The position numbers and the translations under genes are program-made. A stretch of DNA of 64,000 nucleotides from an uncultured beta proteobacterium (lineage in GTDB: Bacteria; Pseudomonadota; Gammaproteobacteria; Burkholderiales; Burkholderiaceae_C): assembly GCA_903822435.1 (NCBI GenBank), contig CAIJPE010000039.1:1-64000 (forward strand), written 5' to 3'. Shown piece by piece: positions 1 to 15,602 of this stretch. Positions within the stretch are counted from its first letter, which is position 1. Each line of letters begins with the position of its first letter. The notes beneath the pieces are model-generated. The model was not told the DNA's origin. It saw only the letters and a program-made list of their open reading frames with translations, and did not search any database.

Positions 1-337
1 AGCGCTTGGTGTCGAACGAGGCGAGCTTGGCATCCCGGCCCTTGTGCTCGGTGTGGCAGCTGCGGCATTGCGGCTGCGTCTCGCGCTTGCCGTGAAAGCC
101 ATTGTGCAGTCGGATGTCTTCGCCCACGTCCTTGTGGCAGCTGGTGCACAGCTTGTCTTGCGCGTTGCGGTCGAAGCGGGAGTGGCAGGCCTTGCAGTCA
201 CTCTCCGTCTTGACATGGCCCTGAATTACCGGCCCCGGGGCCAGTACCGACTCCAGCGACTGAGCCTGCACGGGACGCAGTCCCGCCAGGCACAACAGGC
301 ACAGCAAGGCCAGACCCAGATGGCGCACAAACGTCAT
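1..337 (-). CDS. Multiheme cytochrome c, 3' part outside window (partial)
   Basis: The gene reads leftward off the window edge, so only the first 112 residues are visible. An N-terminal signal peptide (MTFVRHLGLALLCLLCLAG, ending near VQA) is followed by three CXXCH haem-attachment motifs (CKACH, CTSCH, CRSCH), spaced as in cytochrome c3/c7-like multihaem proteins. The product should be exported to the periplasm and carry several covalent haems. The ATG at 337 is chosen because it directly precedes the signal peptide; the frame is absent from the ORF track because no stop lies inside the window. It follows the b-type cytochrome gene by 43 bp, so the two probably share a transcript and an electron path. 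Total haem number and family are unknown. Confidence 0.85.
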   Translation of the reverse strand, partial: MTFVRHLGLALLCLLCLAGLRPVQAQSLESVLAPGPVIQGHVKTESDCKACHSRFDRNAQDKLCTSCHKDVGEDIRLHNGFHGKRETQPQCRSCHTEHKGRDAKLASFDTKR

Positions 338-380
338 CGCGGTGGCCGTGGCCACCCGCCGGAACCCGCCATGGCGCGAA

Positions 381-1307
381 TCAATATGCATGCACCGCGA
401 TGACGTGGACGACGGCGCTGATGACGAGGATGTAGACGAAGGGCACATGCGCGACGTGCCACCACGAGAACAGCCGCTCCCATGCACTGAAGAGGGCCAC
501 GCGCTGCGCCCCCACCAGGTACTTGTCCACCATCAACCGGGCCCCGCGGACGCGCCCCTCCAGCGTGCGTCGCGACCAGCCCTCGGTGTGGGCCACCGCG
601 ACCAGGCGGCGGCGCAGTTCGGCATGGCATGCCCGCTGCGCGCGCCAGCGCATCCAGGGCATGACGAAGACGACGCGCACCACCTCCAGGCCCGTCATGG
701 CGCGGCGGTTCAGCGCCCAGCTCTCGAATTCGCGGCAGATCTCCACGACCTTGGGCGCGAATCGCAGCCGCGCCGCTGCAGACTCGCTCGCGTCCAGGCT
801 GCTGCGCATCTGGCCCAGCGTCAGCTTCTCGCCGTTCAGGTTGCGATGCAATTGCAGATAGAGAAAGCGCCCGATCACGCCGCTGGCAGCCACGGCCACC
901 ATGGAATAGAAGGCCACGCCGGCGTTCAACGAGCCAATCTTGAAACCCGAATGCAGCAGGATCAGCAAGGGCCCCGCGACCCCCAGCACCATGTGCCCGA
1001 TGAACCAGCCCTTGGCGGGCCCCAGGCCGTGCATGAAGCGCAGATGCTTGCGCATCGGGTAGCCCAGCAGCAGCAGCATGCCCACGCCCCCCGCCACGCC
1101 GAGCCAGTAGGCGACATCGGACTTGCTGTCATACAGGCCCAGCCGCGTGAAGCCCCAGGCGCCCAGCACCAGCGCCGTCAGCAACAGGTACAGCCAGCCC
1201 TCGCTGCGCGCGCTGCCGGCGACCTTGGCCGCGGCGCGTGCGTCGGCCCGCGGCTCGTCGCCGATGGCTTGCGCAGAGGGGTCCTCGATGGCAACTGTGT
1301 TGGGCAT
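381..1307 (-). CDS. Putative b-type cytochrome-like integral membrane protein
   Basis: A 308-residue membrane protein with hydrophobic segments near residues 45-65, 75-95, 110-135, 140-160 and at the C-terminus. Paired histidines sit in or next to helices (GHMVLGVAGPLLILLHSGF; WWHVAHVPF with HVIAVH at the end), a layout like ferric-reductase or b561-type dihaem membrane proteins. A soluble, Arg-rich loop (about residues 165-270) separates the first helices from the last. The likely role is passing electrons between the quinone pool or a cytoplasmic flavoprotein and the multihaem cytochrome encoded just downstream. An in-frame GTG at 1337 would add ten charged residues; the ATG at 1307 is preferred. 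Haem binding is inferred from histidine placement, not from a family I can name with certainty. Confidence 0.7.
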   Translation of the reverse strand: MPNTVAIEDPSAQAIGDEPRADARAAAKVAGSARSEGWLYLLLTALVLGAWGFTRLGLYDSKSDVAYWLGVAGGVGMLLLLGYPMRKHLRFMHGLGPAKGWFIGHMVLGVAGPLLILLHSGFKIGSLNAGVAFYSMVAVAASGVIGRFLYLQLHRNLNGEKLTLGQMRSSLDASESAAARLRFAPKVVEICREFESWALNRRAMTGLEVVRVVFVMPWMRWRAQRACHAELRRRLVAVAHTEGWSRRTLEGRVRGARLMVDKYLVGAQRVALFSAWERLFSWWHVAHVPFVYILVISAVVHVIAVHAY

Positions 1308-1436
1308 ATTTCTCGATTTCGTGCGATTCGTTCGCACCGCTGTCCAAACGGTACTTTCGGCCGATTTGCAGCCGACTTGACTCAGTTTAGACAGGCCATT
1401 GACCGCTCTCTTAAGAAGTTAATCAGCCTTGCGAGA

Positions 1437-1493
1437 GCATTACAGTCGCTCACCAATCAGGTACGACTATCGCGCCGCCAAGCGCATTACAGT
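1437..1493. repeat. Two direct copies of GCATTACAGT in the divergent promoter region
   Basis: Exact 10-bp copies lie at 1437-1446 and 1484-1493, 47 bp apart start to start, in the 194-bp gap between the divergent b-type cytochrome and Fe-S/FAD oxidoreductase genes. The second copy ends just before the oxidoreductase start, overlapping where its ribosome site would be. Direct repeats of this kind can be response-regulator or activator sites, but nothing in the window proves it. Confidence 0.4.
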
Positions 1494-1501
1494 TTGTGGA
1501 A

Positions 1502-2812
1502 ATGGAATCGAATCAATACCTTTTTCTGTACGCCAGCATCGCGGCGGCATTCGTGGGCTGGCACGTGGTCCGGCGCGAGCGCCGCCAGAAGGTCGAGGTC
1601 GCACAGCTGAAGCAGGCCGAGGTCGCCGGGCTCAACGAGCCGGCTTCACTGCATCCCGTGGTGGACCCCGACCGATGCCTGGGTTCCGGAGCCTGCGCGC
1701 GAGCCTGTCCCGAACAGGCACTCGGCGTGGTCAATGGAAAGGCCACGCTCATCAACGCCTCGGCGTGCATCGGTCATGGCGCCTGCTTCAACGCCTGCCC
1801 CGTGCAGGCGCTCACGCTGGTGTTCGGCACCGAGAAGCGCGGCATGGACATCCCGCACATCAGCGCCGATTTCGAGACCAACGTGCCTGGCGTGTTCATC
1901 GCCGGTGAACTGGGTGGAATGGGGCTGATCCGCAAGACGGCCGAGCAAGGGCGGCAGGCGATGGCTGCCATCCGCAAGCGCAGCGGCGACCACAAGGCCC
2001 CGCTCGACGTGGTCATCGTCGGCGCGGGCCCCGCAGGCATTTCGGCCGGCTTGAGCGCCATCGCCCACAAGCTGCGCTACAAGATCATCGAGCAGGAGGA
2101 TTCACTGGGGGGCTCGGTCTACCACTATCCGCGCAACAAGCTGGCCATGACCGCGCCTGTGCAGCTGGACCTCATCGGCACCGTGCGGTTGGGCACCGAG
2201 GTGCAGAAGGAAAAGCTGCTCGAATTCTGGAACGACGTGGCCTCCAAGACCCAGCTGGCCATGAGCTTCAACGAACGCTTCGAGGGCCTGGACAAGCATC
2301 CCGACGGCACCTATCAGGTCCGCACCTCCCGGAGCTCGTACCACACGCGTTCGGTGCTGCTGGCGCTGGGGCGCCGCGGCACGCCACGCAAGCTGGGCGT
2401 GCCTGGCGAGGAACTTCCGAAGGTCGTCTACCGCCTCGTCGATCCCGAGCAGTACGCCGGCCGACCGGTGCTGGTTGTGGGTGGCGGCGATAGCGCACTG
2501 GAGGCCGCCATCGCCCTGGCGGAGCAACCCGGCACCGAAGTCGCCCTGTCGTACCGGGGCGAGGCTTTCGCGCGGGTCAAGGAGAAGAACCGCCTGCGCC
2601 TGGACGAGCATGTGCGCGCCGGCCGCATCCAGTGCCTGCTGAAATCGCAGGTGCTGAGCATCGATCCCGACAGCGTGCAGGTCTCGCGCCAAGGCGATCC
2701 GGTGCTGACCCTGCGCAACCACCACGTCGTGGTCTGCGCGGGTGGCGAACTGCCCACGCCGCTGCTGCGTTCGATCGGCATCCGGTTCGAGACCAAGTTC
2801 GGCAAGGCCTGA
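1502..2812 (+). CDS. Membrane-anchored Fe-S / FAD-NAD(P) oxidoreductase
   Basis: A 436-residue fusion. It has an N-terminal hydrophobic anchor (about 5-22), a two-cluster ferredoxin module (about 55-105), a linker with the segment TNVPGVFIAGELGG, then a thioredoxin-reductase-like FAD/NAD(P) unit with two Rossmann motifs (VIVGAGPAG near 165 and VVGGGDSALEAA near 325). The ferredoxin motifs are CLGSGACARACP and CIGHGACFNACP, so the usual second cysteine is Ser in one and His in the other. The protein likely moves electrons between NAD(P)H and a membrane carrier on the cytoplasmic side. It is divergent from the b-type/multihaem cytochrome pair and may be its partner. A GTG at 1496 could add two residues. 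The physiological acceptor is unknown. Confidence 0.82.
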   Translation: MESNQYLFLYASIAAAFVGWHVVRRERRQKVEVAQLKQAEVAGLNEPASLHPVVDPDRCLGSGACARACPEQALGVVNGKATLINASACIGHGACFNACPVQALTLVFGTEKRGMDIPHISADFETNVPGVFIAGELGGMGLIRKTAEQGRQAMAAIRKRSGDHKAPLDVVIVGAGPAGISAGLSAIAHKLRYKIIEQEDSLGGSVYHYPRNKLAMTAPVQLDLIGTVRLGTEVQKEKLLEFWNDVASKTQLAMSFNERFEGLDKHPDGTYQVRTSRSSYHTRSVLLALGRRGTPRKLGVPGEELPKVVYRLVDPEQYAGRPVLVVGGGDSALEAAIALAEQPGTEVALSYRGEAFARVKEKNRLRLDEHVRAGRIQCLLKSQVLSIDPDSVQVSRQGDPVLTLRNHHVVVCAGGELPTPLLRSIGIRFETKFGKA

Positions 2813-2842: not shown

Positions 2843-4213
2843 TCACGGGAAGTGGAGTTCCAGGTGCAGGCCGCCCAGGGGCGACGTGCTCAGCCGGATG
2901 GTGGCGCCGTGCGCGTCGGCCACGGACTTCACGATCGACAACCCGAGCCCGCAGCCCTGGCGCTCAACCCCCTGGCCGCGGTAGAAGCGCTCGAAGATTC
3001 GGGGCTGCTCGTCGACCGGCACGCCGGCCCCATCGTCCTCCACCCACACCACGGTGCCGGACCCTTCGGCGCGGGAGCCCACCACCACCTCGCCACCTTC
3101 GCGGGCGTGTGCCACGGCGTTGTGCAGCAGGTTGCGGAGCATCGCTCGCAGCCCGAATTCCGACCCCTGGATCGCTTCCACCCCCAACAGCGTGGTGATC
3201 CGCAAGCGCCGCTGGGTGGCCTCGGCGCCGACATCGTCCAGCAGCCGCTCGAAAAGTGACCCCAGGTCCACCTGGCCACGCTCTCGTGAAAGTCCCAGCG
3301 GGTCGCTGGCCAGCGAGTCGGTGCGGGCCAGATCGAGCAACTGCGTCACCAGGTGCGCGGCCTGGTCCACGCCGTCCTGCAGCGATAGCAAGGCCTGCCG
3401 ACGGGCCGGCTCGGCCATGCCGGTCCGCAGCAGCAGCTGCGCCTGGGCATGCAGGGCGGCCAGCGGCGAGCGCAGTTCGTGCGCGGCTGCGGCCGTGAAG
3501 GAGCGCTCGCTCCGCAACGCCGCCTCGACGCGGCGCATCAGTTGATTGATGCCACCCACCACGGGCGTCAGCTCGGCTGGCAATCCGTCCATCGGCAACG
3601 GGCTGAGATCGGCCGGTCCGCGCCGTGCCAGGTGCCTGGCCGCCGGCTGCAGCGGCGACAGGGCCAGCCGCAGCAACGCCGATGCGAGCAGGCCCAGGGC
3701 TGTTGCCGACACGCCGACGCCGATGGCCAGAGGGCCGCCGAAGACGTCGGCAAGGTTCAGCCGTAGGGAAATGGGTTCGGCCACCTGGATCAGGTTCGTG
3801 CCTGCGGGTTCGCGCAGGGCAATGACGCGAAGCGACTGGCCCGCCACGGTGCGCGTGGTCCAGCCCAGCGGGCCCAGCGGCGCCAAGGGCTGATCGCGCG
3901 GCGCATTCGGGCTGCTGACCAGCAAGCGACCGTCTTGCGACCAGATCTGGTAGCGATAACGTAGGCTCGCCGGCCCATCCTGGTCGACCGGATCCAGGCT
4001 GTCGCCCTCGCGGGCGACCTCTCGGATCTCATGGTCTGCAAAGACCGCCAAGGTCTGGGCCAGATCTTCCAGGCGGGCATCGAAGAGCATCGCGTCCTGC
4101 CGCTGCACGACGGTATAGATGGCCACGGCACCGGCCACCCAGGCCGACACGCAGACGACGCCGACCAGGCTGAGCATCCGCCCGTGCAGTGACCAGGGGC
4201 GCCGTGCCTGCAT
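2843..4213 (-). CDS. Two-component sensor histidine kinase (QseC/TctE-like)
   Basis: A 456-residue kinase with a transmembrane helix near 13-33, a periplasmic sensor of about 120 residues, a second helix near 158-185, a HAMP-like linker, a HisKA domain with the phospho-acceptor His at about 245 in AAAAHELRSPLAAL, and an HATPase domain showing N (RNLLHNAVAHA), G1 (VEDDGAGVP), F (FERFYRG) and G2 (GCGLGLSIV) boxes. It starts 3 bp after the response regulator stop and is the last gene of the leftward ccm/mto string, so it should phosphorylate that regulator. The periplasmic signal cannot be read from sequence. Its place at the end of a cytochrome operon suggests a metal, redox or envelope signal. 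Confidence 0.93.
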   Translation of the reverse strand: MQARRPWSLHGRMLSLVGVVCVSAWVAGAVAIYTVVQRQDAMLFDARLEDLAQTLAVFADHEIREVAREGDSLDPVDQDGPASLRYRYQIWSQDGRLLVSSPNAPRDQPLAPLGPLGWTTRTVAGQSLRVIALREPAGTNLIQVAEPISLRLNLADVFGGPLAIGVGVSATALGLLASALLRLALSPLQPAARHLARRGPADLSPLPMDGLPAELTPVVGGINQLMRRVEAALRSERSFTAAAAHELRSPLAALHAQAQLLLRTGMAEPARRQALLSLQDGVDQAAHLVTQLLDLARTDSLASDPLGLSRERGQVDLGSLFERLLDDVGAEATQRRLRITTLLGVEAIQGSEFGLRAMLRNLLHNAVAHAREGGEVVVGSRAEGSGTVVWVEDDGAGVPVDEQPRIFERFYRGQGVERQGCGLGLSIVKSVADAHGATIRLSTSPLGGLHLELHFP

Positions 4214-4216
4214 GCC

Positions 4217-4900
4217 TCAACGTTCGGCGTACAGGGCGTAGCCGCGTCCGCGCACGGTCTTGATGAGTGCGGGGCCGAGCTTGCGCCGCAGGTGATGCAC
4301 ATGCACTTCCACGGCGTTGCCGCAGAGTTCGTCGGGCCCGGCGCCCGAGGTGGCCTCGGCCAGTTCTTCGCGGCTCAGGACCTGGCCCTTCCGGCGGATG
4401 AGCGCCTCCAGCAACCAGAACTCCCGGTTGGTCAGTTTCAGGTAGCGGCCGTCACAGGACACGGTGCGGCTGGCTGGCATCAGTCGCAAAGGGCCGTGAC
4501 GCAACACGGTCTCGAGGGGCCCGGCCATGCCCCGCCGCCGCTGGACGGCCCGCAGGCGGGCCGAGAGCTCGTCCAGGTGCACGGGCTTGACCAGGAAGTC
4601 GTCGGCGCCCAGATCGAGCAGCCGCACCCGGTCCTGCACCTGCTCGCGCGCCGTCACCACGATCACCGGCAAGTCGAAGTCGGCCGCTCGCAGGCTCTTC
4701 AGCGCGTCTTCGCCCGGCATGTCCGGCAGGCCGAGATCCAGCACCATGCAGTCGAAGCGTCCCGAGCGCAACGTCGGCTCGATCTCGCGGCCCGTGGCGA
4801 TCCATTCCACGTGCACGCCCTCGAGCCCCATCCAGGACCTCAAGGCACCCGCCAGGCGGGCGTCGTCCTCGGCCAGCAGCAGCCGCTTGAGACCGCTCAT
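4217..4900 (-). CDS. OmpR/PhoB-family response regulator
   Basis: A 227-residue regulator. The receiver domain (1-115) has the acidic pair near residues 11-13, phospho-acceptor Asp55 in MVLDLGLPDMPG and the conserved Lys in LVKPVHLDELSARL. The winged-helix DNA-binding domain (about 130-225) contains LTNREFWLLEALIRRKGQVLSREEL and ends VRGRGYALYAE, typical of the QseB/TctD subgroup. It overlaps the ccmI stop by one base (TGATG) and is 3 bp from its kinase gene, so the pair is translationally coupled to the cytochrome maturation genes. Candidate targets include the mto/ccm promoter and the divergent region at 1308-1501, but no site is demonstrated. Confidence 0.95.
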   Translation of the reverse strand: MSGLKRLLLAEDDARLAGALRSWMGLEGVHVEWIATGREIEPTLRSGRFDCMVLDLGLPDMPGEDALKSLRAADFDLPVIVVTAREQVQDRVRLLDLGADDFLVKPVHLDELSARLRAVQRRRGMAGPLETVLRHGPLRLMPASRTVSCDGRYLKLTNREFWLLEALIRRKGQVLSREELAEATSGAGPDELCGNAVEVHVHHLRRKLGPALIKTVRGRGYALYAER

Positions 4901-6201
4901 CAGCGTACCGGTTCGGCGATCTCGAGTTGCAGGTTGCGGCTGCCCACCGCCACCGGCGCGGACAGGGTCTGCCAGTCCCCGGGCGCTGGCATCGCGTTGC
5001 CGCTCTTGCTCACCCGAGCCCCGACCACCACCATCGGTGCGGAAGACAGCTTGGCCGCAGGGCTCATGGCCAGGCTGTCGTCGAGTTTGAAGTCCAGTGG
5101 CAAATCGCTCACCTTCTTGCGCAGGATCGCCAGCGGCATCTTCGATCCGCTGGGGGCCCGTGCGAAGATGAACACCACATCGTCTGCCGAGACACCCTGC
5201 AGCCCGGGCTTCAGGCTGACCCGGCCGGTCACCACGGCTGCTTCACCGCTGGCGGAGGGTGAGCCGGGTGCGGCTGGTGCGGCTGGTGCCGCGGCGGCGG
5301 CCTCCGCGCCCGGTGCCGCCGCCGGCGCTGCCAGACCCGCCAACGCATCCGCTGCAGGCATTCCCGCTCTCTGGCGGGCTTCGTTCAGCGCGCCGGCGAG
5401 CTGCTTGGTGAAGTCGCTGGCCGGATCGGCATTGCGCACGGCGCTTTCCCAGTGCGAGACCGCCTGCGCGTAGTTCCCCTGGTTGAAGGCGATGGTTCCC
5501 GCCAGCGCGAGCGCCTTGACGTTGTTCGGGTCCAGCTTGACGGCCTGCATCACCAGCCGAGTGGGCTCTCCGTCGAGCGAACGGTTGTTCGAGACTGCCA
5601 GCGCGTCGGCATAGTCGGCAATCGACTGCGCGTCCTGCGGCCGCAGATCCATGGCCTTCTTGTAGGCCTGCAAGGCCTCGGCCGGCTTGTTCTGGGTCGT
5701 GTAGGAGCGCCCCAGCATGGCCCAGCCTTCGGCGTCGTCGGGTTTTTCCTTCAATCGCTCGGCCAGCCGCGCGATCATCGCCTCGATCTGCGCGGCATCG
5801 CTGGAATGGGGGGCCCCTTCGGCGGCCGGGCCGGCCTGGCCCGGGGACACGTTCCAGCCCCCCGGGTTGCCCAGCCAGGCATAGCCCGCGGCGGCGAAGA
5901 CGACGACGAAGCCGGCCAGTCCTGCCACCAGGCGGCGAGAAGGCCGGCTGGCGGGGGCCGTCTCCGGGGCCGGCACGGGCGCAGGCATGGCGGGCGCTGC
6001 AGCCGGAGGCATGCCAAGTTCAGCCCCACTGAGCACCAGGGCCACGATCTGCTGCTCGAGCGACTCTCGTGCACTGCGGGCTGCCTCCCCGGTCAGCACG
6101 CCTTCGGCGCCGAGCGCCTCCAGTTGCGCGAGCTGTCGCTTGAGCTTATCGAGAGATGCCGCGGTCGCTTCCATCTTCGGGTGTGTCGGGGTCGAAGTCA
6201 T
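4900..6201 (-). CDS. ccmI: Cytochrome c maturation TPR protein CcmI
   Basis: CcmI chaperones apocytochromes c to the haem lyase CcmFH in the periplasm. The 433-residue product has a cytoplasmic helical N-terminus, one membrane helix (about 90-110, RRLVAGLAGFVVVFAAAGYAWLG), TPR repeats (about 150-270, e.g. EGWAMLGRSYTTQNKPAEALQAY), an Ala/Pro-rich linker and a C-terminal beta domain (TGRVSLKPGLQ to the end) typical of CcmI. The usual extra N-terminal membrane helix is not evident. The track start overlaps ccmH by 56 bp; an ATG at 6174 (MEATAASLDKL) would reduce this to 29 bp and is equally plausible. It is coupled to ccmH upstream and the response regulator downstream. Confidence 0.92.
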   Translation of the reverse strand: MTSTPTHPKMEATAASLDKLKRQLAQLEALGAEGVLTGEAARSARESLEQQIVALVLSGAELGMPPAAAPAMPAPVPAPETAPASRPSRRLVAGLAGFVVVFAAAGYAWLGNPGGWNVSPGQAGPAAEGAPHSSDAAQIEAMIARLAERLKEKPDDAEGWAMLGRSYTTQNKPAEALQAYKKAMDLRPQDAQSIADYADALAVSNNRSLDGEPTRLVMQAVKLDPNNVKALALAGTIAFNQGNYAQAVSHWESAVRNADPASDFTKQLAGALNEARQRAGMPAADALAGLAAPAAAPGAEAAAAAPAAPAAPGSPSASGEAAVVTGRVSLKPGLQGVSADDVVFIFARAPSGSKMPLAILRKKVSDLPLDFKLDDSLAMSPAAKLSSAPMVVVGARVSKSGNAMPAPGDWQTLSAPVAVGSRNLQLEIAEPVR

Positions 6202-6607
6202 CGGGATCGGCTTGCAGGCGCCGCTTGAGCACGAGGATCAACCCGCCCACTGCGGCGGCCAGCAGCAAGGGCGGGCCGACCCACAAGAGGGCCGTGGTGG
6301 CCTTGAAGGGTGGCTTGTAGAGCACGAAATCGCCATAGCGATCGGTCATGTAGCGGCGGATCTCGTCCTCGCTGCGGCCCTGGCCCAGCTGCTCGCGGAT
6401 CTGTTGGCGAAGGTCGGCGGCCAGGTCGGAATGGGAATCGGCGATGGTCTGGTTCTGGCACACCAGGCAGCGCAATTCGCTGGCCAGCAGCATCATCCGC
6501 GCTTCCTGCTCGGGGTTTGCGGCCACCTCCGCAGCTTCCTTCGAATACGCAAGCGGTGCGACCAGCAGCCAGGCGGCCAGCACCAGCAGGATCAGGCGAT
6601 CAGCCAT
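6146..6607 (-). CDS. ccmH: Cytochrome c maturation thiol oxidoreductase CcmH
   Basis: CcmH keeps the apocytochrome CXXCH cysteines reduced for haem ligation at the periplasmic face. The 153-residue protein has a signal/anchor sequence (MADRLILLVLAAWLLVAPLA), the signature SELRCLVCQNQTIADS with the redox pair CLVC, a helical bundle (DLRQQIREQLGQG), and a C-terminal membrane helix (about 105-128) with a short cytoplasmic tail. Length and order match single-domain CcmH/CycL. It overlaps ccmG by 8 bp. Confidence 0.96.
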   Translation of the reverse strand: MADRLILLVLAAWLLVAPLAYSKEAAEVAANPEQEARMMLLASELRCLVCQNQTIADSHSDLAADLRQQIREQLGQGRSEDEIRRYMTDRYGDFVLYKPPFKATTALLWVGPPLLLAAAVGGLILVLKRRLQADPDDFDPDTPEDGSDRGISR

Positions 6608-7124
6608 TGAGCTTCTTCAGCAAGGGTTCGATCTTGTCGTGCAGCACTTCCGGGGTCATGGGCCCCACGTGCTTGTAGCGTACGACGCCGGTCCGGTCGA
6701 TCACGAAGGTCTCTGGCACGCCGTACACGCCATAGTCGATGCCGATGCGTCCGTCCGGGTCGGTGAGTGATTCGGTGTACGGGTTGCCCAATTGGCGCAG
6801 CCAACTCAGGCCTGCAGCCGCATTGTCCTTGTAATTCAGGCCGTAGATGGGCACCGGCGAGCGGGGTGCGAATTGCACCCACACAGGGTGTTCGTCGCGG
6901 CACGGCCCACACCAGGAGGCCCAGACGTTGAGGATCCAGGGCTTGCCCACGAGATCGTCACGGCTGATGTTCTGCCCGGGTCGCGCCAGCAGGCTGGCGC
7001 GAAAGGCCGGCGCCGGCTTGTCGATCAGCGGGCTGGGCACCTCGTGGGGATCGAGCTTCAGGCCGAAGGCCAGAAACCCCGCCAGCACCAGAAAGGCTGC
7101 CAGCGGCAGAAGGTACCGGTTCAC
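6600..7124 (-). CDS. ccmG: Thiol:disulfide interchange protein CcmG/DsbE
   Basis: A membrane-anchored periplasmic thioredoxin that reduces CcmH and apocytochrome thiols. From the GTG at 7124 the product is 174 residues: an N-terminal helix ([22 protein letters not shown]) and a thioredoxin fold with the active site WASWCGPCRDEHP and the TFVIDRTGVV segment containing the cis-proline region. The track ORF begins far upstream inside ccmF; the GTG start is chosen because it gives a GTGA overlap with the ccmF stop and starts right at the signal anchor. Confidence 0.95.
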   Translation of the reverse strand: MNRYLLPLAAFLVLAGFLAFGLKLDPHEVPSPLIDKPAPAFRASLLARPGQNISRDDLVGKPWILNVWASWCGPCRDEHPVWVQFAPRSPVPIYGLNYKDNAAAGLSWLRQLGNPYTESLTDPDGRIGIDYGVYGVPETFVIDRTGVVRYKHVGPMTPEVLHDKIEPLLKKLNG

Positions 7125-9100
7125 GCAGCCGCCTCCTGCGCAGGCGAGGCCGAGACCGAGCGTTGCGGCACGCGATAACGGCGGTCGCTCAAGGCCAGCA
7201 CGCCGCCGGCCATCATCATCAGGCAGCCGCCCCAGATCCAGACGATGAAGGGCTTGTGCTGCACGCGGACGATCCATTCGCCGCTCGGCAACTGTTCACC
7301 CATCGAGATGTAGAGGTCGCGCAGCGGGTTGCTGTCGACCGCCGCCTCTGTCATCGGGTTCTGCTGCACCCGGTAGATCCGCTTTTCGGGCAACAGTGTG
7401 GCGCGCAGGCGATCGCCGCTGTAGACCTCGATGCGGCCCTGGGTCGCCACGTAGTTGGGCCCTTGGACGTCGCGCAGGCCCGTCATCTTGAAGGTGTAGC
7501 CGCCGACTTCGGTGCTGTCTCCAGGGCCCATCTTCACGTCGCGTTCGGTCTCGTAGGTCTTCACCATGGACACACCGAAGGCGAAGGCTGCCACGCCCAG
7601 GTGGGCCGCCAGCATGCCCCACATCGCGAGCGGCAGCTGCCGGGCGCGATGGACCACTTGCGCGGCGCGGGCTCCCGGCGGCAGCAGGCGTTCCTTCAGG
7701 TCCAGGCCCAGGCTGGCGACGATCCAGAATGCCATCAACAGGCCACCGGTGGTCAGCACGCCGAAGCGTCCTGCAACGGCCTGAACGGCCAGCGCGGCGG
7801 CCAGCGCAACCACCAGCACCCAGCGCAGCCGACGCACCATGGGGCCGGCCTCGTCCTGCTTCCAGCGGGTGAGGGGGCCGATGCCCATCACCACGACCAG
7901 CGGCGCCATGAGCAGCCCGAAGACGGTGTCGAAGTAGGGCGGCCCGACGCTGATCTTGCCCAGGCCCAGCGCATCCAGGAACAGCGGGTAAAGCGTGCCC
8001 AGGAGCACCGCGCCGCAGGCCACCGCCAGCATCATGTTGTTGACCAGCAGGAGGGACTCGCGCGAAAACAGGCCGAAGCGCTGCCCGAGGCCGACCTTGG
8101 GTGCTCGCCATGCGAAGAGCGCCAGCGAGCCGCCGATCACGATCACCAGGAAGGCCAGGATGAACAGGCCGCGGCGCGGGTCGGTGGCAAAGGCGTGGAC
8201 CGAGCTGAGCACGCCCGAGCGGACCAGGAAGGTGCCCAGCAGCGACAGGGAAAAGGCCACGATGGCCAGCCAGACGGTCCAGACCTTGAAGGTGCCGCGC
8301 TTCTCGGTGACGGCCAGGGAATGGATGAGCGCGGTGCCGGCCAGCCAGGGCATGAACGAGGCGTTTTCAACCGGGTCCCAGAACCACCAGCCGCCCCAGC
8401 CCAGCTCGTTGTAGGCCCACCAACTGCCCAGGCCGATGCCGAAGGTGAGAAACACCCAGGCGGCCGTCGTCCAGGGCCGAGTCCACCGCGCCCAGGCAGC
8501 GTCCAGGTTGCCGCCGAGCAATGCCGCGATGGCAAAGGCGAACGCGACGCTGAAGCCCACGTAGCCCATGTACAGCATGGGTGGGTGGATGACCATGCCC
8601 GGATCCTGCAGCAACGGGTTCAGGTCGCGCCCGTCCTGTGCCGCCGGGATCAGGCGGTCGAAGGGATTGGAGGTGAGCAGCATGAAGAGCAGGAAGCCCA
8701 CCGCCACCAGACCCATCACGGACAGGATGCGGGCCTGGAACGGGCGCGGAATCCGGTCGCTGAAGCTGGCCACCGCCACCGTCCAGACGTTGAGCATCAG
8801 CATCCACAGCAGCAGCGAACCTTCGTGCCCGCCCCATACGGCCGCAAAGCGGTAGTACAGGGGCAGCGCCGAATTCGAGTTGGATGCGACGTAGAGCACC
8901 GAGAAGTCGTTGCGCAGGAAGCTGGCTGCCAGGGCCGCGAAGGCCAGCACCACGAAGACGGCCTGCCAGCGCGCGAGCGGCTTGCCCAAGGCCATCCAGT
9001 CTTCGCGGCCGCGCTGGGCACCGACCATCGGCAACACGCCTTGCGCCAAGGCCAGGCCCAGGGCGAAGAACAGGCACAGGTGTCCGAGCTCGGGAATCAT
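7121..9100 (-). CDS. ccmF: Haem lyase subunit CcmF
   Basis: The large integral subunit of the haem lyase that attaches haem to apocytochromes in the periplasm. The 659-residue, many-helix protein carries the tryptophan-rich haem-handling motif [18 protein letters not shown] (about residues 235-250), conserved histidines (e.g. [23 protein letters not shown]) and a large periplasmic domain near the C-terminus (about 500-620). Length is normal for CcmF. It overlaps ccmE (ATGA) and ccmG (GTGA) by four bases each. Confidence 0.97.
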
Positions 9101-9570
9101 TTGGCGGCTCCGGCTTCGCCCTGTGCCAGCGTCGCTGCCATGCGATTGCGCATCTTGTCGGCGCGCTGGAGCGCGTCGGCTGCCTCGGGGGGCATGTAGT
9201 TCTCGTCGTGCTTGGCCAGCACTTCGCGCGCGGTGAACACGCCGTCGGTACCGAGCTGGCCCTGCGCGACCACGCCCTTGCCTTCCTTGAACAGGTCGGG
9301 CAGCACGCCTTCGTAGCGCACAGGGACGGTCTTTGCGGTGTCGGTGACGGTGAAACGAACCGTCACACCTTCGCGCACCACGGTGCCCGCCTGCACCAGC
9401 CCGCCGATTCGAAAGGTCCGGCCCTGGGGCGCTTCCTTCGAGGCAATCTGGCTGGGCGTGTAGAAGAAGACGAGGTTGCTGTTGAAGGCGTTCAGCACCA
9501 GCCCGGCGGCCACACCCAATGCCAGCAAGGCGCCCCCGATGATCGCCGCTCGCTTTTGACGTGGCTTCAT
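9097..9570 (-). CDS. ccmE: Periplasmic haem chaperone CcmE
   Basis: CcmE binds haem covalently through a histidine and hands it to CcmF. The 157-residue product from the ATG at 9570 has an N-terminal anchor (about 8-28), an OB-fold domain ([16 protein letters not shown] onward) and the haem-binding segment [12 protein letters not shown] with the key His and Tyr. The track ORF includes 35 upstream residues from the ccmD frame; [13 protein letters not shown] is chosen as start because it gives an ATGA overlap with ccmD. The C-terminal tail after MPPE is somewhat long and charged. Confidence 0.96.
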
Positions 9571-9731
9571 GACTGTGCTCCGTGTTCGAGTTGTGCCAGC
9601 GCGGCCCGGCGACGATGAGAGGCCAGCAACGGCTCGATCACCATGATCGCCAGCGTCATGCCGTAGGAACCCCACACATACAGGCCGTAGCCGCCCATGT
9701 GCAGGAAGTCGTCGAATGAGTTCCAGTGCAT
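9567..9731 (-). CDS. ccmD: Haem exporter accessory protein CcmD
   Basis: A 54-residue small membrane protein with the family pattern: an aromatic start ([24 protein letters not shown]), one transmembrane helix ([13 protein letters not shown]) and a basic tail (SHRRRAAL). CcmD helps release holo-CcmE from the CcmABC complex. The ATG at 9731 is preferred over the upstream track start since it begins at the conserved region and leaves 4 bp after ccmC. Confidence 0.93.
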
Positions 9732-9735
9732 CGCG

Positions 9736-10500
9736 TTATGTCCTCGGCGCCGCTTGCTGGCCACTTGCCAGCCGGCGCACCCAATCGGTCTGGTCTTCCT
9801 GCTCGAGCACGATGGCCCGGGCCCTGGTGAAGACTACGGCGAAACTGTAGGCCCAGAAGCTGAAGGTCATCAGCAACATGGCCACCAGCATGGTGCTGGC
9901 CATTTTCGGAGCGGCGGTCATGCTGATAGAGGAGCCCTGGTGCAATGTGTTCCACCAACGCACCGAAAAATAGATGACCGGCACGTTGACGGCGCCCACC
10001 AGCGCCAGCAAGGCCCCGGCGTGCGCCGCCCGGCGCACATCATCGATGGCGGCGACCAGAGCCATGTAACCAATGTAGAGAAGCAACAGGATGAATTCAG
10101 AGGTCAGACGGGCGTCCCAGACCCACCAGGTGCCCCAGGTCGGCTTGCCCCAGAACGAACCCGTCCACAACGCAATGACGGTGAACAGCGCACCGGTGGG
10201 GGCCAGCGCCTGGGCGTACATCGAGGCCAGGCGGGCATTCATGATCCAGCCCCACGCGGCCCAGAACGCCAGAATCAGGTAGATCAGCATCGACATCCAC
10301 GCGGCCGGTACGTGGATGAAGATGATCCGGTAGGCGTCGCCCTGCTGGAAATCGGTGGGCGCGATGCCGAAGCCGACCCACAGACCGGCCAGTCCCAGGG
10401 CGATGGCCAGCGCCCAGAACCACGGCACCAGCGTGCCCGCGAGTGCATAGAAGCGGGAAGGCGCGGCGAAGGTCGACCATCGAAGGGCAGGGGCGTTCAC
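9736..10500 (-). CDS. ccmC: Haem exporter membrane protein CcmC
   Basis: CcmC loads haem onto CcmE at the outer face of the cytoplasmic membrane. The 254-residue protein has six predicted helices and the tryptophan-rich motif WGTWWVWDARLTSE (about 135-148). Conserved histidines flank it (IIFIHVPAAW before; a second in the RWWNTLHQG segment after). Length is typical. It lies 3 bp from ccmB and 4 bp from ccmD, inside the continuous maturation operon. Confidence 0.97.
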   Translation of the reverse strand: MNAPALRWSTFAAPSRFYALAGTLVPWFWALAIALGLAGLWVGFGIAPTDFQQGDAYRIIFIHVPAAWMSMLIYLILAFWAAWGWIMNARLASMYAQALAPTGALFTVIALWTGSFWGKPTWGTWWVWDARLTSEFILLLLYIGYMALVAAIDDVRRAAHAGALLALVGAVNVPVIYFSVRWWNTLHQGSSISMTAAPKMASTMLVAMLLMTFSFWAYSFAVVFTRARAIVLEQEDQTDWVRRLASGQQAAPRT

Positions 10501-10503
10501 GGT

Positions 10504-11172
10504 TCAGTCCATTGAAATGCGCAAGGCCGCCGCGGTGGCCAGGGGTGCCCCGAGGACGGACAGGATCAGCAAGGCACCCAGCAGCGAGAAGTGGGCCCCT
10601 GGCGACAGGCCCCCGTCGACGGCGCCGACGGCGCCAGTGCCGAAGATCAGCGCCGGTATGGTCAGCGGCAGGACCAGCAGGAAGACGAGCGCCGCACCGC
10701 TGCGCAGGCCCAGCGTCAAGGCCGCTCCCACGGCGCCGAGCAGGCTCAGCACGGGCGTGCCCAGCAGCAGCCCCAGCATCAGCGTGCCGATGGACTCCAT
10801 CCGCATGCCGAAGAGCACGCCGAAGAGCGGTGCCGCCACGACCAGCGGCACGCCGGTGGTCAGCCAATGGGCCAGCACCTTGCCGACCACCAGCAAGAGC
10901 AACGGCTGTGGCGAGAGCAGCATCTGCTCGAGAGAGCCGTCCGCGGCGTCACCGGCAAACATCTGGCTGACCGAGAGCATGGCGGCAAGCAACGCGCAAA
11001 CCCACACGACACCTGGGGCAATCTGGCGAAGCGTCTGAGCTTCAGGACCCACGCCCAAGGGAAACAACCCCACTGCGACCGTGAAGAACCCCAGCGGCAG
11101 CATCACTTCGACTCTTCGGCGACTGGCCAACAACAGGTCACGCTTGGCGATGGCCAGCACGACGGCCGTCAT
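10504..11172 (-). CDS. ccmB: Haem exporter permease CcmB
   Basis: The 222-residue six-helix membrane partner of the CcmA ATPase. Recognisable segments are AIAKRDLLLASRRR at the N-terminus, VGLFPLGVGPE, and FAGDAADGSLEQMLLSPQPL, typical of CcmB. The ATG at 11172 is chosen; the track ORF runs far upstream through another frame of the cymA-like gene. An 80-bp spacer separates it from that gene, the widest gap among the genes from mtoA to the sensor kinase. Its normal partner ccmA lies 5 kb upstream, beyond the four cytochrome/porin genes. Confidence 0.96.
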   Translation of the reverse strand: MTAVVLAIAKRDLLLASRRRVEVMLPLGFFTVAVGLFPLGVGPEAQTLRQIAPGVVWVCALLAAMLSVSQMFAGDAADGSLEQMLLSPQPLLLLVVGKVLAHWLTTGVPLVVAAPLFGVLFGMRMESIGTLMLGLLLGTPVLSLLGAVGAALTLGLRSGAALVFLLVLPLTIPALIFGTGAVGAVDGGLSPGAHFSLLGALLILSVLGAPLATAAALRISMD

Positions 11173-11252
11173 GCTGGGCCGCAAGGCAGATGCATTCGGA
11201 TATCTTGCATGCGTGCCGCCATTGTAAGGGTGGCACGCGCGGGGATTGGTCC

Positions 11253-11840
11253 TTACTCGTCGGGGTCGCGGTACTCCTTGGGCAGGTGGTGTGCGATGCC
11301 TTTGTGGCAATCGATGCAGGTCTTGCCTTCCTGCTGGGCGCCCATGTGCTTCTTGTAGATGCTCTGCTTCTGCTTCTCCGAACTCATGGCGTCGAAGTTG
11401 TGGCAGTTGCGGCATTCGCGCGAGCCGGTGGCCGACATGCGCGCCCATTCGTGCGTGGCCAGTTCCATCCGCTTGGCCTCGAATTTTTCCGGGGTGTCGA
11501 TGGTGCCGATCAGTTTGCCCCAGACTTCGCCGCTGGCCTGGATCTTCCGGGCCATCTTGTGCGTCCAGTCCTTGGGCACATGGCAATCGCTGCAGATGGC
11601 CCGCACGCCGGTGCGGTTTTTGAAGTGGATGGTTTCCTGGTATTCCACGTACACGGTGTCGCGCATCTCGTGGCAACCGGTGCAGAAGGCCAGCGTGTTG
11701 GTGGCCTCCATGCCCGTGTTGAAGGCCCCCCAGAACAGGATGCCGCCCACGAAGCCCAGCACCAGCAGGGTCAGGAGGCCGTACTTTGCGCTCGGCCGGC
11801 GCAGGAACTGCCACGCGCGCTTGATTTTTCCGTCGCTCAT
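11253..11840 (-). CDS. cymA: NapC/NirT-family tetrahaem quinol cytochrome (CymA/MtoC-like)
   Basis: An inner-membrane tetrahaem cytochrome that exchanges electrons between the quinone pool and periplasmic cytochromes. The 195-residue protein has one N-terminal helix (about 18-42, GLLTLLVLGFVGGILFWGAF) and four haem motifs: CTGCH, CSDCH, CRNCH and CIDCH, the number and order typical of NapC/NirT/CymA. It overlaps the mtoB-like gene by four bases (ATGA), so it belongs to that module. In an Fe(II)-oxidising system it would feed electrons from MtoA/MtoD to ubiquinone; in a reducing system the flow would be opposite. The symbol follows CymA usage; MtoC is equally apt. Confidence 0.92.
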   Translation of the reverse strand: MSDGKIKRAWQFLRRPSAKYGLLTLLVLGFVGGILFWGAFNTGMEATNTLAFCTGCHEMRDTVYVEYQETIHFKNRTGVRAICSDCHVPKDWTHKMARKIQASGEVWGKLIGTIDTPEKFEAKRMELATHEWARMSATGSRECRNCHNFDAMSSEKQKQSIYKKHMGAQQEGKTCIDCHKGIAHHLPKEYRDPDE

Positions 11841-14521
11841 TGGAAGCTGACCAGGTAGGAAACGGTTACGGTGTGCACCGTGAAGCTGGGTGCCTGCTCG
11901 AAAGTGGGCAGCACGCCCGCCAGTCCGCCGGCCTGCAGGCCGTCGTAGGCCCAATCGGTGGCCTGCATGTGCTGGTAGAGGTAGCCCACGCGCACGGCGC
12001 GGCTGTCGTCGAGTCGCCAGCGCAGCCCGGCCCGCAACTCCACCGTGCGGGTGGTGATGTCGGGCAGCGGCGTGGCGGCAATGTAGTAGGCCGCCACGGT
12101 GCCGGCCGCCGCACCGGTGACCGCCAGCGGGTTGTTGGCATAGTTGCCGCCGGCCGTGTCGTTGGCGGTGCGCGCCGAGGTGTACGACAGGCCGCCGCTC
12201 AGATCGAGCTTGCCGCCGGCCAGGTTCTTCTGCGTGCCCGCGATGCCCAGTGTGCTGACGCGGTCGCGGTTGTCGGCCTTCCAGTCCAGGCAGGGGTCGA
12301 TCTTGTTGTTGGCGTTGCGCAGCGCGATGGTGGCGAAGCAGCCGCCCGAGATCGCCGTGAAGCCGTTGACGTTGACGGCCGTGCTGTTGGCCGTGTAGCT
12401 GTTGCCGGCGCTGGTGGTGTGCTGGTCCTCGAAGGTGACATAAGCCGCGAGACTGGTGTTTTCGCTCGGCGCCCAGCTGCCGTCCAGGTTGGCCGTCCAG
12501 CCGCGCGCCTTCTGCAGGCCGTAGACCGAGTGCGTGTAGTCGTCGCCATTGAGGTCCAGGCCCGCCTGCAGGCTGACGGTGTCGCTGGCCTGCCAGGTCA
12601 GGGCCGACCGCAGCTTGTCGCGCTTGCGGTCGGCCATGTCGTAGCGGCGCATGCCCGGCAACTCGCTGATGCGGTTCTGGTTGGCATACAGGCTGTTGGA
12701 CAGTGCGTTGTTGTTGGCGAAGAAGAACGCAGCGGGGCTGCCGGCGGCCGGCAGGGGGTTCAGGCCCAGCGCCGGCCCGTAGCCGGTCACGCCCAACTGG
12801 GTCATGGTGCCGTAGGCAGTGCTGCCGCCGGGCGCCCCGGTGGGCGACACATTGGCCATCGGCACCAGGGCCAGGAAGGCGTTTTCGTTGTAGTCCACCG
12901 TGCGTTCGGCGTGGGTCAACCCGACCCGGCCGCTCAAGGAATCGGTGGCGTTGAACAGCAGTTCCAGCCGTACCGTGTCTTCGTCGGTCTTGTTGGCGTC
13001 CGCGCAGGCGATCCAGCTGCCGTTGCACCAGTGGTCGACCTTCTGCTTCTGGTAGCCCACCCGCACGGTCTGGCCCGGGGCCAGCCTGTAGTCGCCGTCC
13101 AGGTCCACCTGGTGCAGCTTGCGGCTGTAGGCCCGGTTGGCGTTGATGTTCGCATTGGAGCCCAGGCCCAGCGTGGGGTAGGCGCCGTTGAATACCGAAC
13201 TGCCGGCGTTGCCGCTGCGCAATTCGCTTGCGTCATAGAAGGCGTAGTTGTTCACGGGCGTCTGGTTGTCGCGCTCGTCGAACTTGTAGGCCGCGGACAG
13301 GTTTAGCCCCGCGATCGGCCTCGAGGCCAGGCGCAGGTGCAGTGCACGGTTGACCACCAGGGCCTGCGCCGAGCCCTGCGGCACCAGCACCGTGCTGATG
13401 TCGGTGACGAAGGGCGCGTTCTGGGTGCTGCGGCCAAAGCTCACGCCGCCCGACAGCCGCGTGCTGCTGCCCAGGCGGTACTGGGCATTGACGCCGAGCT
13501 GGTGCAACTCGTTGCTGGGCGCCGAACTCATGGTCTGCGAGTTGGGCGCTGATCCCGGCGTGGCCCAGTTGGCCCAGGTCATCGAGGGCACGTTGTTGGT
13601 CAGCGTCGACAGCAGGTAGTGGCTCTGAACCACCAACCGGTCGCCCGTGTAGTTCAGGCCCAGCGTGATCTGCTCGTGGCTCTGGTCGATCAGGTCGGGG
13701 ATGATGGTGGAAATGTCGCCGCCGGTGAAGCGCGTGATGGTGCCCATGGCCTTCAGGCCGTTGCGGTCTTCGTGGCGCAGGTTGGCCGTGAGGTCCCAGC
13801 GGCTGTCGAGATTGAGCAGTGCGTTGAACTCCAGCCTCTTGCGCTGGGTGCCCAGGCGTACCGTCTGGAAGGCCGGCAGGTCGGCCGACTGGATGGCCGA
13901 GGCCGTGGCCAGCTGGGCCGCCGTGGGCGCCGTGTACACACCGCTGACCAACCCGTTGGAGGCCGTCACGTCGCTGGACAGGCCGCGGGCGTTGGCCCCC
14001 GTGGCGCTGACCCGGGGCACCAGCGGCACCAGCCAGTTGGAGGGCAGGGTCAGGACGTGGGTGCCGGCGCCCAGCAGGGGCGTCTGGTAGGTGTCGGAGC
14101 GGTTGCGCTGCAACTCGTCGTACGTGACGCTGAAGCGCCCCTGGCCCTGTTGCGAGGCCTCGGCCCCCAGGCTGCGTGAATCGGTGCCCAGCTGCAGGCC
14201 CCAGACGCGCCAGCGCGACGCATCGTCGCTGTCCCAGCGGCCGCCGCCGCGCAGGTCGAAGGCACCCACGCCGAAGGTGCCCTTGCGCTTGATGCCGTCG
14301 TATTCGTGGGCCTTGGCCGACGCATCGCTGGTGTTGCCGATGCCCACCTCCACCGTGGACGTGGGTTGGGTCAATGCCGCCGTGGCGGCGTCTTCGGCCA
14401 GCGCCATGCGGGGGGTGCAGACGGTGCCGGCCGCCCCCATGGCCAGCAGGGCGCCCCGCAGAGCGGCCACCGAAGGCCGCAACGCGCAGGCACGGGGAAT
14501 GGGGAGGTGCAGAAGGGACAT
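11837..14521 (-). CDS. mtoB: MtrB/PioB/MtoB-family outer-membrane porin
   Basis: An outer-membrane beta-barrel that sheathes a decahaem cytochrome to carry electrons across the outer membrane. The 894-residue product has a long signal peptide (cleavage near MALAEDAA), then repeated amphipathic strands rich in Tyr, Asn, Asp and Gly (e.g. TLGLNYTGDRLVVQSHYLLS, VRVGYQKQKVDHW) and ends in an aromatic residue pattern (TVSYLVSFQ) typical of barrels. It is longer than Shewanella MtrB (about 700) and nearer PioB. A GGAG ribosome site precedes the ATG. It lies 27 bp after the decahaem gene, the diagnostic MtrAB gene pair. No surface MtrC/OmcA cytochrome is present in the window. Confidence 0.93.
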   Translation of the reverse strand: MSLLHLPIPRACALRPSVAALRGALLAMGAAGTVCTPRMALAEDAATAALTQPTSTVEVGIGNTSDASAKAHEYDGIKRKGTFGVGAFDLRGGGRWDSDDASRWRVWGLQLGTDSRSLGAEASQQGQGRFSVTYDELQRNRSDTYQTPLLGAGTHVLTLPSNWLVPLVPRVSATGANARGLSSDVTASNGLVSGVYTAPTAAQLATASAIQSADLPAFQTVRLGTQRKRLEFNALLNLDSRWDLTANLRHEDRNGLKAMGTITRFTGGDISTIIPDLIDQSHEQITLGLNYTGDRLVVQSHYLLSTLTNNVPSMTWANWATPGSAPNSQTMSSAPSNELHQLGVNAQYRLGSSTRLSGGVSFGRSTQNAPFVTDISTVLVPQGSAQALVVNRALHLRLASRPIAGLNLSAAYKFDERDNQTPVNNYAFYDASELRSGNAGSSVFNGAYPTLGLGSNANINANRAYSRKLHQVDLDGDYRLAPGQTVRVGYQKQKVDHWCNGSWIACADANKTDEDTVRLELLFNATDSLSGRVGLTHAERTVDYNENAFLALVPMANVSPTGAPGGSTAYGTMTQLGVTGYGPALGLNPLPAAGSPAAFFFANNNALSNSLYANQNRISELPGMRRYDMADRKRDKLRSALTWQASDTVSLQAGLDLNGDDYTHSVYGLQKARGWTANLDGSWAPSENTSLAAYVTFEDQHTTSAGNSYTANSTAVNVNGFTAISGGCFATIALRNANNKIDPCLDWKADNRDRVSTLGIAGTQKNLAGGKLDLSGGLSYTSARTANDTAGGNYANNPLAVTGAAAGTVAAYYIAATPLPDITTRTVELRAGLRWRLDDSRAVRVGYLYQHMQATDWAYDGLQAGGLAGVLPTFEQAPSFTVHTVTVSYLVSFQ

Positions 14522-14548
14522 GAGTGTCTCCTTGAAGGGGTGCCGTGG

Positions 14549-15541
14549 TCAGCGCTGGAACTTCGCGCCGGCGGGGTGGTTGGAGCCGTGGACCAGCACG
14601 TGGCAGTTCAGGCAGGCCCTTCCGACCAACTGGGCACGCGCCGCGGCGTTGGCCAGCGGGTTGATGCCATTGACCGTGGTCAGGTTGCCCCCGGCGAGGT
14701 TCGCGCCGCTGTTGGCCTGTGCGCCGTGGTCTCCGCTGTGGCACTGCTGGCACAGCATCGGCGGCCGGGCCTTCAGCAAAGGCGCGTTGGTCGAGCCGTG
14801 CGGCGTGTGGCAGGTGGTGCAATCTTCGGCCACCGGGGCGTGCTCCCACAGGAAGGGGCCGCGCTTCTCGGCGTGGCAGCTGGTGCAGGTGGCGTTGACC
14901 GAGTCCTTGGCCAGCAGCTTGGGCCCGGTCGTGCCGTGCGGGTTGTGGCAGTCGCTGCAGGCCATCTTGCCGGCGGCCAGCGGGTGGGTGGAGATGCGGT
15001 GCGTCTGCGCGCGCTCGGTCTTGTGGCAGGCAAAGCACACCTCGGGCTGCGTGGCCTTGGTCAGCACCGGGTCGGTCTTGCGGTGCACCGAGTGGCAGGC
15101 TGCGCAGGGCACGTTGCGCGACTCGTGTGCGCTGCCGTCCCAGTGCATGCGCAGCCCGCCCTTGTGGCAGGCGATGCAGGTCTCGCTCTGGATGCGCGGG
15201 TCGCTGGCATGGTTGACCGTCGTGTCGGTCTTGTAGACGACTTCGGGCGCCGGTCGGCTGGCGTTGCCCAGGCCCTTGCCGCCCGCCACGTGCTCGTTGC
15301 TCTTGCCGTGGCAGGACTGGCAACTCGGCGTGCGGCTGTCTGCCTTCACGCCGTGCCGTGTTTGGTAGATCGAGAAAATCGGCTTGTTGTCGGTCTCGTC
15401 GTGGCACTTGGTGCACACGGCGTCCTGCGCCAACGCTTCCACCAGCCTCGGCGTCGGGCTCGGGGCCTCGGCCGCCAGTGCCGGGGTACCCATCAGGCAG
15501 GCGAGCGCCAGCCCGACGCACAACCGCGTCATCCAGACCAT
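14549..15541 (-). CDS. mtoA: Periplasmic decahaem cytochrome c, MtrA/MtoA/PioA (DmsE) family
   Basis: Exactly ten CXXCH motifs can be counted in the 330-residue product: CTKCH, CQSCH, CIACH, CAACH, CFACH, CSDCH, CTSCH, CTTCH, CQQCH and CLNCH. A signal peptide ends at about residue 23 (GTPALAAEA). Length and haem count match MtrA/MtoA rather than the larger surface cytochromes. The protein would lie inside the MtoB barrel and act as the trans-outer-membrane wire. The start at 15541 has a GGAG site seven bases upstream; M4 is a possible alternative. With MtoB, the CymA-like protein and the MtoD-like protein it reproduces the gene set described for neutrophilic Fe(II) oxidisers. Fe(II) as the donor is inference. 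Confidence 0.95.
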   Translation of the reverse strand: MVWMTRLCVGLALACLMGTPALAAEAPSPTPRLVEALAQDAVCTKCHDETDNKPIFSIYQTRHGVKADSRTPSCQSCHGKSNEHVAGGKGLGNASRPAPEVVYKTDTTVNHASDPRIQSETCIACHKGGLRMHWDGSAHESRNVPCAACHSVHRKTDPVLTKATQPEVCFACHKTERAQTHRISTHPLAAGKMACSDCHNPHGTTGPKLLAKDSVNATCTSCHAEKRGPFLWEHAPVAEDCTTCHTPHGSTNAPLLKARPPMLCQQCHSGDHGAQANSGANLAGGNLTTVNGINPLANAAARAQLVGRACLNCHVLVHGSNHPAGAKFQR

Positions 15542-15602
15542 CTTCGTCTCCTTGCAGGGCAGCCCGGGGGCGCGGCTCAGGCCGCGGGGGGCCGCGGGGG
15601 GC

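Follow-up and report, generated by a model that had tools for sequence, protein, structure and literature searches.

The first 2812 bases of a 64,000-nucleotide stretch from an uncultured beta proteobacterium of the Burkholderiaceae_C (positions 1 to 64,000 of contig CAIJPE010000039.1, hereafter the window) carry three open reading frames (ORFs): an inner-membrane protein (IMP, P0001), a periplasmic multihaem cytochrome (P0003), and a flavoprotein with NAD(P), FAD, and iron-sulphur (Fe-S) modules (P0002). All three ORFs were confirmed. The analysis indicated that the trio is, on balance, probably the inner-membrane end of a PCC3 conduit and that the flavoprotein should be counted as its fifth component. 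The locus is of a known kind, PCC3, with an added and strongly supported component that changes the likely mechanism. An earlier note on this DNA had presented the genes as an undescribed redox trio. The IMP and the periplasmic cytochrome are PCC3 components described in 2017 (PMC5566968), so the claim of novelty had to be given up for them. That the three genes belong together held, but the trio was incomplete, since the unit also comprises a porin and a second, giant cytochrome.

He et al. (2017, PMC5566968) defined PCC3 by an IMP, a periplasmic multihaem cytochrome, a large extracellular cytochrome, and a porin; what is taken here from PMC5566968, PMC8788666, PMC12016527, and PMC12442390 refers to excerpts of these papers. 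The PCC3 clusters of Sideroxydans lithotrophicus ES-1 are Slit_0867-0870 and Slit_1446-1449 (PMC5566968). The present locus resembles PCC3 in its IMP motif set, 24-haem periplasmic cytochrome, giant second cytochrome, porin, and gene order. It differs from PCC3 as described in those excerpts by the extra NAD(P)/FAD/Fe-S flavoprotein, which was found here and in all sampled relatives.

The co-occurrence of the flavoprotein with the IMP was determined in three overlapping genome samples, comprising 300 genomes of the order, 399 of the phylum, and 100 relatives, which together held 33 distinct genomes with a full-length IMP. In the order sample, the full-length IMP was present in 17 genomes and the flavoprotein in the identical 17. 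The Fisher test for this distribution (17 both, 283 neither) gave p ~4e-28, a value that is overstated because the genomes are related by descent. In the phylum sample, both proteins were found in the same six genomes; an extra weak flavoprotein match in G365 (211 bits) proved to be a different protein. Among the 100 relatives, the IMP was found in 17 genomes and the flavoprotein in those 17 and two more. Of these two flavoproteins without a full-length IMP, that of G041 adjoins a PCC3-type porin at a contig end, and that of G047 is a fragment at a contig end. The flavoprotein was thus present in 33 of 33 genomes with a full-length PCC3 IMP. The earlier note would have been contradicted by rare co-occurrence; instead, the pairing was non-random and the trio behaves as a conserved unit. 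A distance-matrix (mirror tree) comparison gave the pairing no added weight, since CcmF correlated as strongly as the tested pair.

The flavoprotein gene was the divergent neighbour of the IMP gene in 23 of the 33 genomes and lay elsewhere in the same cluster in five. In four others it was on a contig starting inside the PCC3 porin or cytochrome genes. In the window, P0001 and P0002 are likewise divergent, with about 165-195 bp between their starts, and the intergenic stretch (1338..1501) would be expected to hold the promoters of both genes. In the open-licence literature, supplements aside, the accessible PCC3 descriptions do not list the flavoprotein, and no paper linking it with PCC3 was found there. 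A search of the same literature for the locus tags flanking the ES-1 PCC3 clusters returned nothing. The flavoprotein is strongly supported as a constant partner of PCC3 and is apparently a component new to the literature.

The flavoprotein gene (1502..2812, plus strand) encodes, by sequence comparison, a predicted membrane-anchored, circularly permuted protein similar to thioredoxin reductase (TrxR) and YpdA, with NAD(P), FAD, and two Fe-S sites. Pyr_redox_3/Pyr_redox_2 were its Pfam domains, and Fer4 models also matched. The N-terminal hydrophobic anchor is followed by a basic stretch placed on the cytoplasmic side (1514..1570, plus strand). In the first ferredoxin motif, CLGSGACARACP (1676..1711, plus strand), the second Cys is replaced by a Ser that was invariant in 13 aligned homologues; Cys is retained in the distant G399 and G501. 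In the second motif, CIGHGACFNACP (1766..1801, plus strand), the second Cys is replaced by His in every member aligned or matched. P0002 does not have all eight Cys of the two CxxCxxCxxxCP motifs of a 2[4Fe-4S] ferredoxin, and its clusters are likely of the [3Fe-4S] type or held by a non-Cys ligand.

The FAD motif FETNVPGVFIAGELGG (1871..1918, plus strand), which is usually C-terminal in this fold, stands before GAGPAG in P0002. When residues 113-165 were moved to the end, the match to the YpdA model extended from 264 to 293 and that to TrxR from 207 to 296, and the permuted protein gained 16 bits (YpdA) and 9 bits (TrxR) over a shuffled tail. Judged by these comparisons, P0002 is circularly permuted. 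It shares FAD and NAD(P) domains with YpdA/TrxR-like flavoproteins, including the TrxR-type ferredoxin-NADP reductases; unlike them, it is permuted, membrane anchored, equipped with two Ser/His-modified ferredoxin motifs, and devoid of CxxC. Two identities were rejected: YpdA bacillithiol disulphide reductase (TIGR04018), with 162.8 bits against a curated cut-off of 339.9, and thioredoxin reductase, with 64.8 bits against 343.45 and no redox-active CxxC. As the CxxC disulphide motif is absent, disulphide reduction is unlikely and electron transfer to Fe-S is favoured. C412 is the sole invariant Cys outside the ferredoxin motifs in the aligned homologues. The conserved residues Y351, R352, R358, and K360, after the second GxGxxA region, presumably recall NADPH-binding TrxR, which we take as a lead only. 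The permuted order was also observed in a 777-aa protein of G365 (L086:5908-8241, minus strand; G365:C41:67907-70240), fused to a membrane Fer4_5 (NapH-like) and Fer4; this is possibly a separate membrane flavoprotein family.

The IMP gene (381..1337, minus strand; start GTG 1337 or ATG 1307) encodes a predicted five-helix di-haem b protein of 318 aa. The PCC3 IMP has about 300 aa and five transmembrane (TM) segments, with WX3HX13H on TM3 and TM5 and SGXXG on TM4; P0001 has all of these, and its motif set is the one published for PCC3 (PMC5566968). The TM3 motif W111-x3-H115-x13-H129 (951..1007, minus strand) and the TM5 motif W293-x3-H297-x13-H311 (405..461, minus strand) were invariant in 16 homologues, as was S152-G-x-x-G156. 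For P0001, no Pfam or NCBIfam model reached its cut-off, and a profile search of the PDB with the IMP found no relative. The helices of P0001 fit five TM segments and its structure model was weak. The mean confidence score (pLDDT) was 60.7 for P0001 and 44.3 for P0002, low because only six and five close sequences, respectively, served as input. The TM2-3 loop has a net charge of +4.8 and the TM4-5 loop of +11.4. These charges, together with the N-terminal place of the flavoprotein in the fusions described below, suggest that the N-terminus and the long TM4-5 loop are cytoplasmic. H115/H297 would be the haem pair on the cytoplasmic side and H129/H311 that on the periplasmic side. This genome also has two short IMP-like genes, each beside a multihaem cytochrome: L051 (G000:C128, 232-1784), where the cytochrome has 8 CXXCH, and L052 (G000:C208, 16911-18058), where 5 CXXCH are visible at the contig end.

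The periplasmic cytochrome gene (1..391, minus strand; start ATG 337 with a signal peptide, or 391) is represented in the window by its N-terminal part. Base 1 of the window is the first base of contig C39, and only 131 residues with 3 CXXCH are seen because the gene is cut there; the rest lies on contig C251. This contig was found by searching the same genome with the cytochrome of a relative, and its end shares an exact 64-base overlap with the start of C39. Read across the overlap, P0003 has 607 aa, a signal peptide, and 24 CXXCH, in line with the approximately 21-27 haems of the PCC3 periplasmic cytochrome. In relatives this protein has 24 or 27 CXXCH, and 21 in one.

On C251 the cluster continues from the 24-haem cytochrome to a giant cytochrome and a porin-like gene. 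The giant cytochrome (L108, G000:C251, 9136-17277, minus strand) is a 2714-aa open frame with 70 CXXCH, corresponding to the large multihaem cytochrome of PCC3, and is probably extracellular. It consists mostly of tandem repeats, each about 267 aa long and carrying 8 motifs; such repeats can collapse, and their number may differ from the assembly. The repeats may also have caused the assembly breaks here, and the haem number may shift through repeat gain or loss. The corresponding proteins have 105 CXXCH in G052 (G052:C110:15742-27708), 92 in G015 (G015:C170:8037-18521), and 91 in Rubrivivax sp. A210 (G038, C1:322446-332942), with fewer in other relatives. Second cytochromes are thus larger here (70 CXXCH in this genome, 91-105 in these relatives), the relatives' lying above the maximum of 85 given in the excerpts of PMC5566968. 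The porin-like ORF has 46-68% identity to the gene in the porin position of G015 and ends in ...YRYELF; from this C-terminal signature it is a predicted barrel and would be the PCC3 porin. Relatives hold the full PCC3 set of IMP, periplasmic cytochrome, giant cytochrome, and porin.

Fusions in distant relatives of the IMP give the best evidence here that flavin/Fe-S modules may exchange electrons with haem b. L087:3850-7206 and L088:3052-6423 (both plus strand) are single ORFs of 1118-1123 aa in which Pyr_redox_3, two cNMP-binding stretches, and several 4Fe-4S (Fer4) motifs precede a C-terminal IMP domain. L089:6774-8816 (minus strand) is a 680-aa ORF with Pyr_redox_2, a BFD [2Fe-2S] domain, and the IMP domain at its end. 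The fusions come from three species and have two domain layouts. All three retain both WX3HX13H motifs, and each adjoins a 9-10-haem cytochrome; some of these cytochromes resemble FHA-cytochrome fusions. In L091 and L094, a flavoprotein of the L087/L088 layout is an unfused neighbour. Profile comparison showed that the fusion IMP domains are homologous to the PCC3 IMP. Loci L087-L098 resemble, by description only, the "other multihaem c plus IMP" clusters of He et al. (2017), which lack a porin and combine a five-helix IMP with two HX13H, a multihaem cytochrome, and another adjacent redox protein; compared with PCC3, they have another IMP subfamily and fewer haems. The chain from cytoplasm to periplasm put forward in the earlier note gains support from these flavoprotein-IMP fusions.

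Gene content, gene order, co-occurrence, motifs, and fusions were observed directly, and the following chain is proposed from them. The FAD domain of P0002, in the cytoplasm and tethered to the membrane by the N-terminal helix, would take electrons from NADPH (or NADH). Electrons would then pass through the two three-cysteine Fe-S clusters of P0002 to the cytoplasmic-side haem b (H115/H297) of the IMP and on to the periplasmic-side haem b (H129/H311). The 24-haem cytochrome would span the periplasm, and the giant, probably extracellular, 70-haem cytochrome with the porin would deliver the electrons outside. The whole would be an NAD(P)H-to-exterior oxidoreductase, which the cell could use to discharge reductant or to charge a store of haems. 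The occupancy by haem b and Fe-S, the protein contacts, the choice of cofactor, and the outward direction are what we infer. Such a chain would work like NADPH oxidase (NOX) and ferric reductase (FRD), in which an NAD(P)H-FAD module on the cytoplasmic side serves two b haems held by HX13H pairs of two helices. The IMP had no Pfam match at the family cut-off to the ferric reductase family PF01794. Unlike in NOX/FRD, the flavin module is TrxR-like with Fe-S and encoded by a separate gene, and electrons would go to multihaem c.

Outward flow, from NAD(P)H to the exterior, is favoured both by the redox potentials and by the membrane potential. The potential of Fe(II) electrons lies several hundred millivolts above that of NADP+. 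The expression data of ES-1 agree with the outward direction: PCC3 transcripts were lower on Fe(II) than on thiosulphate (PMC8788666), and in the proteome PCC3 was not magnetite-specific (PMC12016527).

In the published PCC3 model, an extracellular donor such as Fe(II) passes electrons through the cytochromes and the IMP to quinone, and the flavoprotein would be an accessory beside this path, such as an NAD(P)H enzyme linked to quinone or haem b. This model was proposed from the likeness of the IMP to quinone-reactive cytochromes b (PMC5566968). The cluster in the window adjoins mtoAB, a known conduit of the Fe(II)-oxidation type, and one PCC3 IMP transcript was upregulated in iron-oxidising Sideroxydans CL21 (PMC12442390). 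The model leaves unexplained both the flavoprotein in all 33 IMP genomes and the fusions of IMP relatives with flavoproteins, and the ES-1 results on Fe(II) and magnetite run against it. We consider it rather unlikely. The NAD(P)H-driven outward conduit also has points weighing against it. The rise of the CL21 transcript suits inward flow and makes the outward direction tentative. The IMP may contain a quinone site. The fusions occur in distant IMP relatives and not in PCC3 itself, and in G697 the flavoprotein gene is the last of a ccm operon on a separate contig.

The earlier note had also considered that the chain might run in reverse and supply NADPH for lithotrophic growth. In such a mode, electrons from Fe(II) would move inward and reduce NADP+ for CO2 fixation. 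Every redox module for the physical path is present. Such transfer would be uphill in potential and, from periplasm to cytoplasm, against the membrane potential, so that thermodynamics disfavours it if the haems act as a simple wire across the membrane. The cluster shows no sign of a coupling subunit, whether a channel for protons or ions, a bifurcating partner, or something else. Moreover, uphill transfer in ES-1, where PCC3 expression is lower on Fe(II), seems to go through complex III and complex I (PMC8788666). This part of the note was not borne out, and the reverse mode has little chance of being correct.

The flavoprotein might instead serve the Ccm system, for example as a reductant source, and track PCC3 since giant cytochromes need much Ccm. 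In the window, a full ccm set (4900-15965) lies between the flavoprotein and mtoB/mtoA. The order in L033 (G019:C2) is the same, except that ccm and mtoB are separated there by a cytochrome that has four CXXCH and a single TM segment. The flavoprotein gene adjoins ccmF/ccmI in G014, G004, G041, and G501 and, as mentioned, ends a ccm operon in G697. However, CcmF was found in 183 of the 300 order genomes and the flavoprotein only in the 17 with the IMP; by reported coordinates, CcmF lay within about 16 kb of the flavoprotein in only 3 of these 17. The missing CxxC disulphide motif also speaks against a Ccm role, which we regard as very improbable. The ccmF and ccmI copies of G014:C202, G004:C27, G041:C118, and G501:C23 lie inside the PCC3 cluster, between the porin (or IMP) and the flavoprotein, which suggests that the very large cytochromes have maturation genes of their own.

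A two-component pair (2843..4900, minus strand), assigned by Pfam as a sensor kinase (2843-4213) and a response regulator (4217-4900), adjoins the flavoprotein gene and separates it from the ccm/mtoBA genes. A kinase and/or regulator is placed likewise in G015, G052, G027, G043, G009, G083, and G004, and the pair is a possible candidate regulator of the PCC3 cluster. That the flavoprotein itself senses redox state or regulates the cluster, and is not a catalyst, is the least probable explanation: these neighbours and the cNMP-binding domains of sister flavoproteins would fit it, but two-component genes were not seen in the mapped loci of many genomes that keep the flavoprotein, and the cofactor residues of the flavoprotein are conserved throughout.

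Returning to the outward conduit, we tentatively advance a broader proposal, to which we give somewhat less than an even chance. The main role of PCC3 may lie not in Fe(II) oxidation linked to quinone but in carrying electrons outward, driven by NAD(P)H. A TrxR-like flavoprotein, permuted and with altered ferredoxin motifs, would feed electrons from pyridine nucleotide directly, without quinone, to a di-haem b protein and two cytochromes, with some 95-130 haems in all in this lineage. The module of flavoprotein, haem b, and multihaem c would have arisen by assembly on more than one occasion, in some cases as a single fused polypeptide.

PCC3 is found in many iron-cycling and other Proteobacteria, with very large cytochromes. 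From a constant NAD(P)H-type partner it can be predicted that the electron donor is a specific cytoplasmic one and that the route does without quinone. The partner is also a reason not to read PCC3 as a marker for Fe(II) oxidation unless there is evidence on the direction of flow. The flavoprotein probably links cell metabolism directly to haem proteins that reach the cell exterior.

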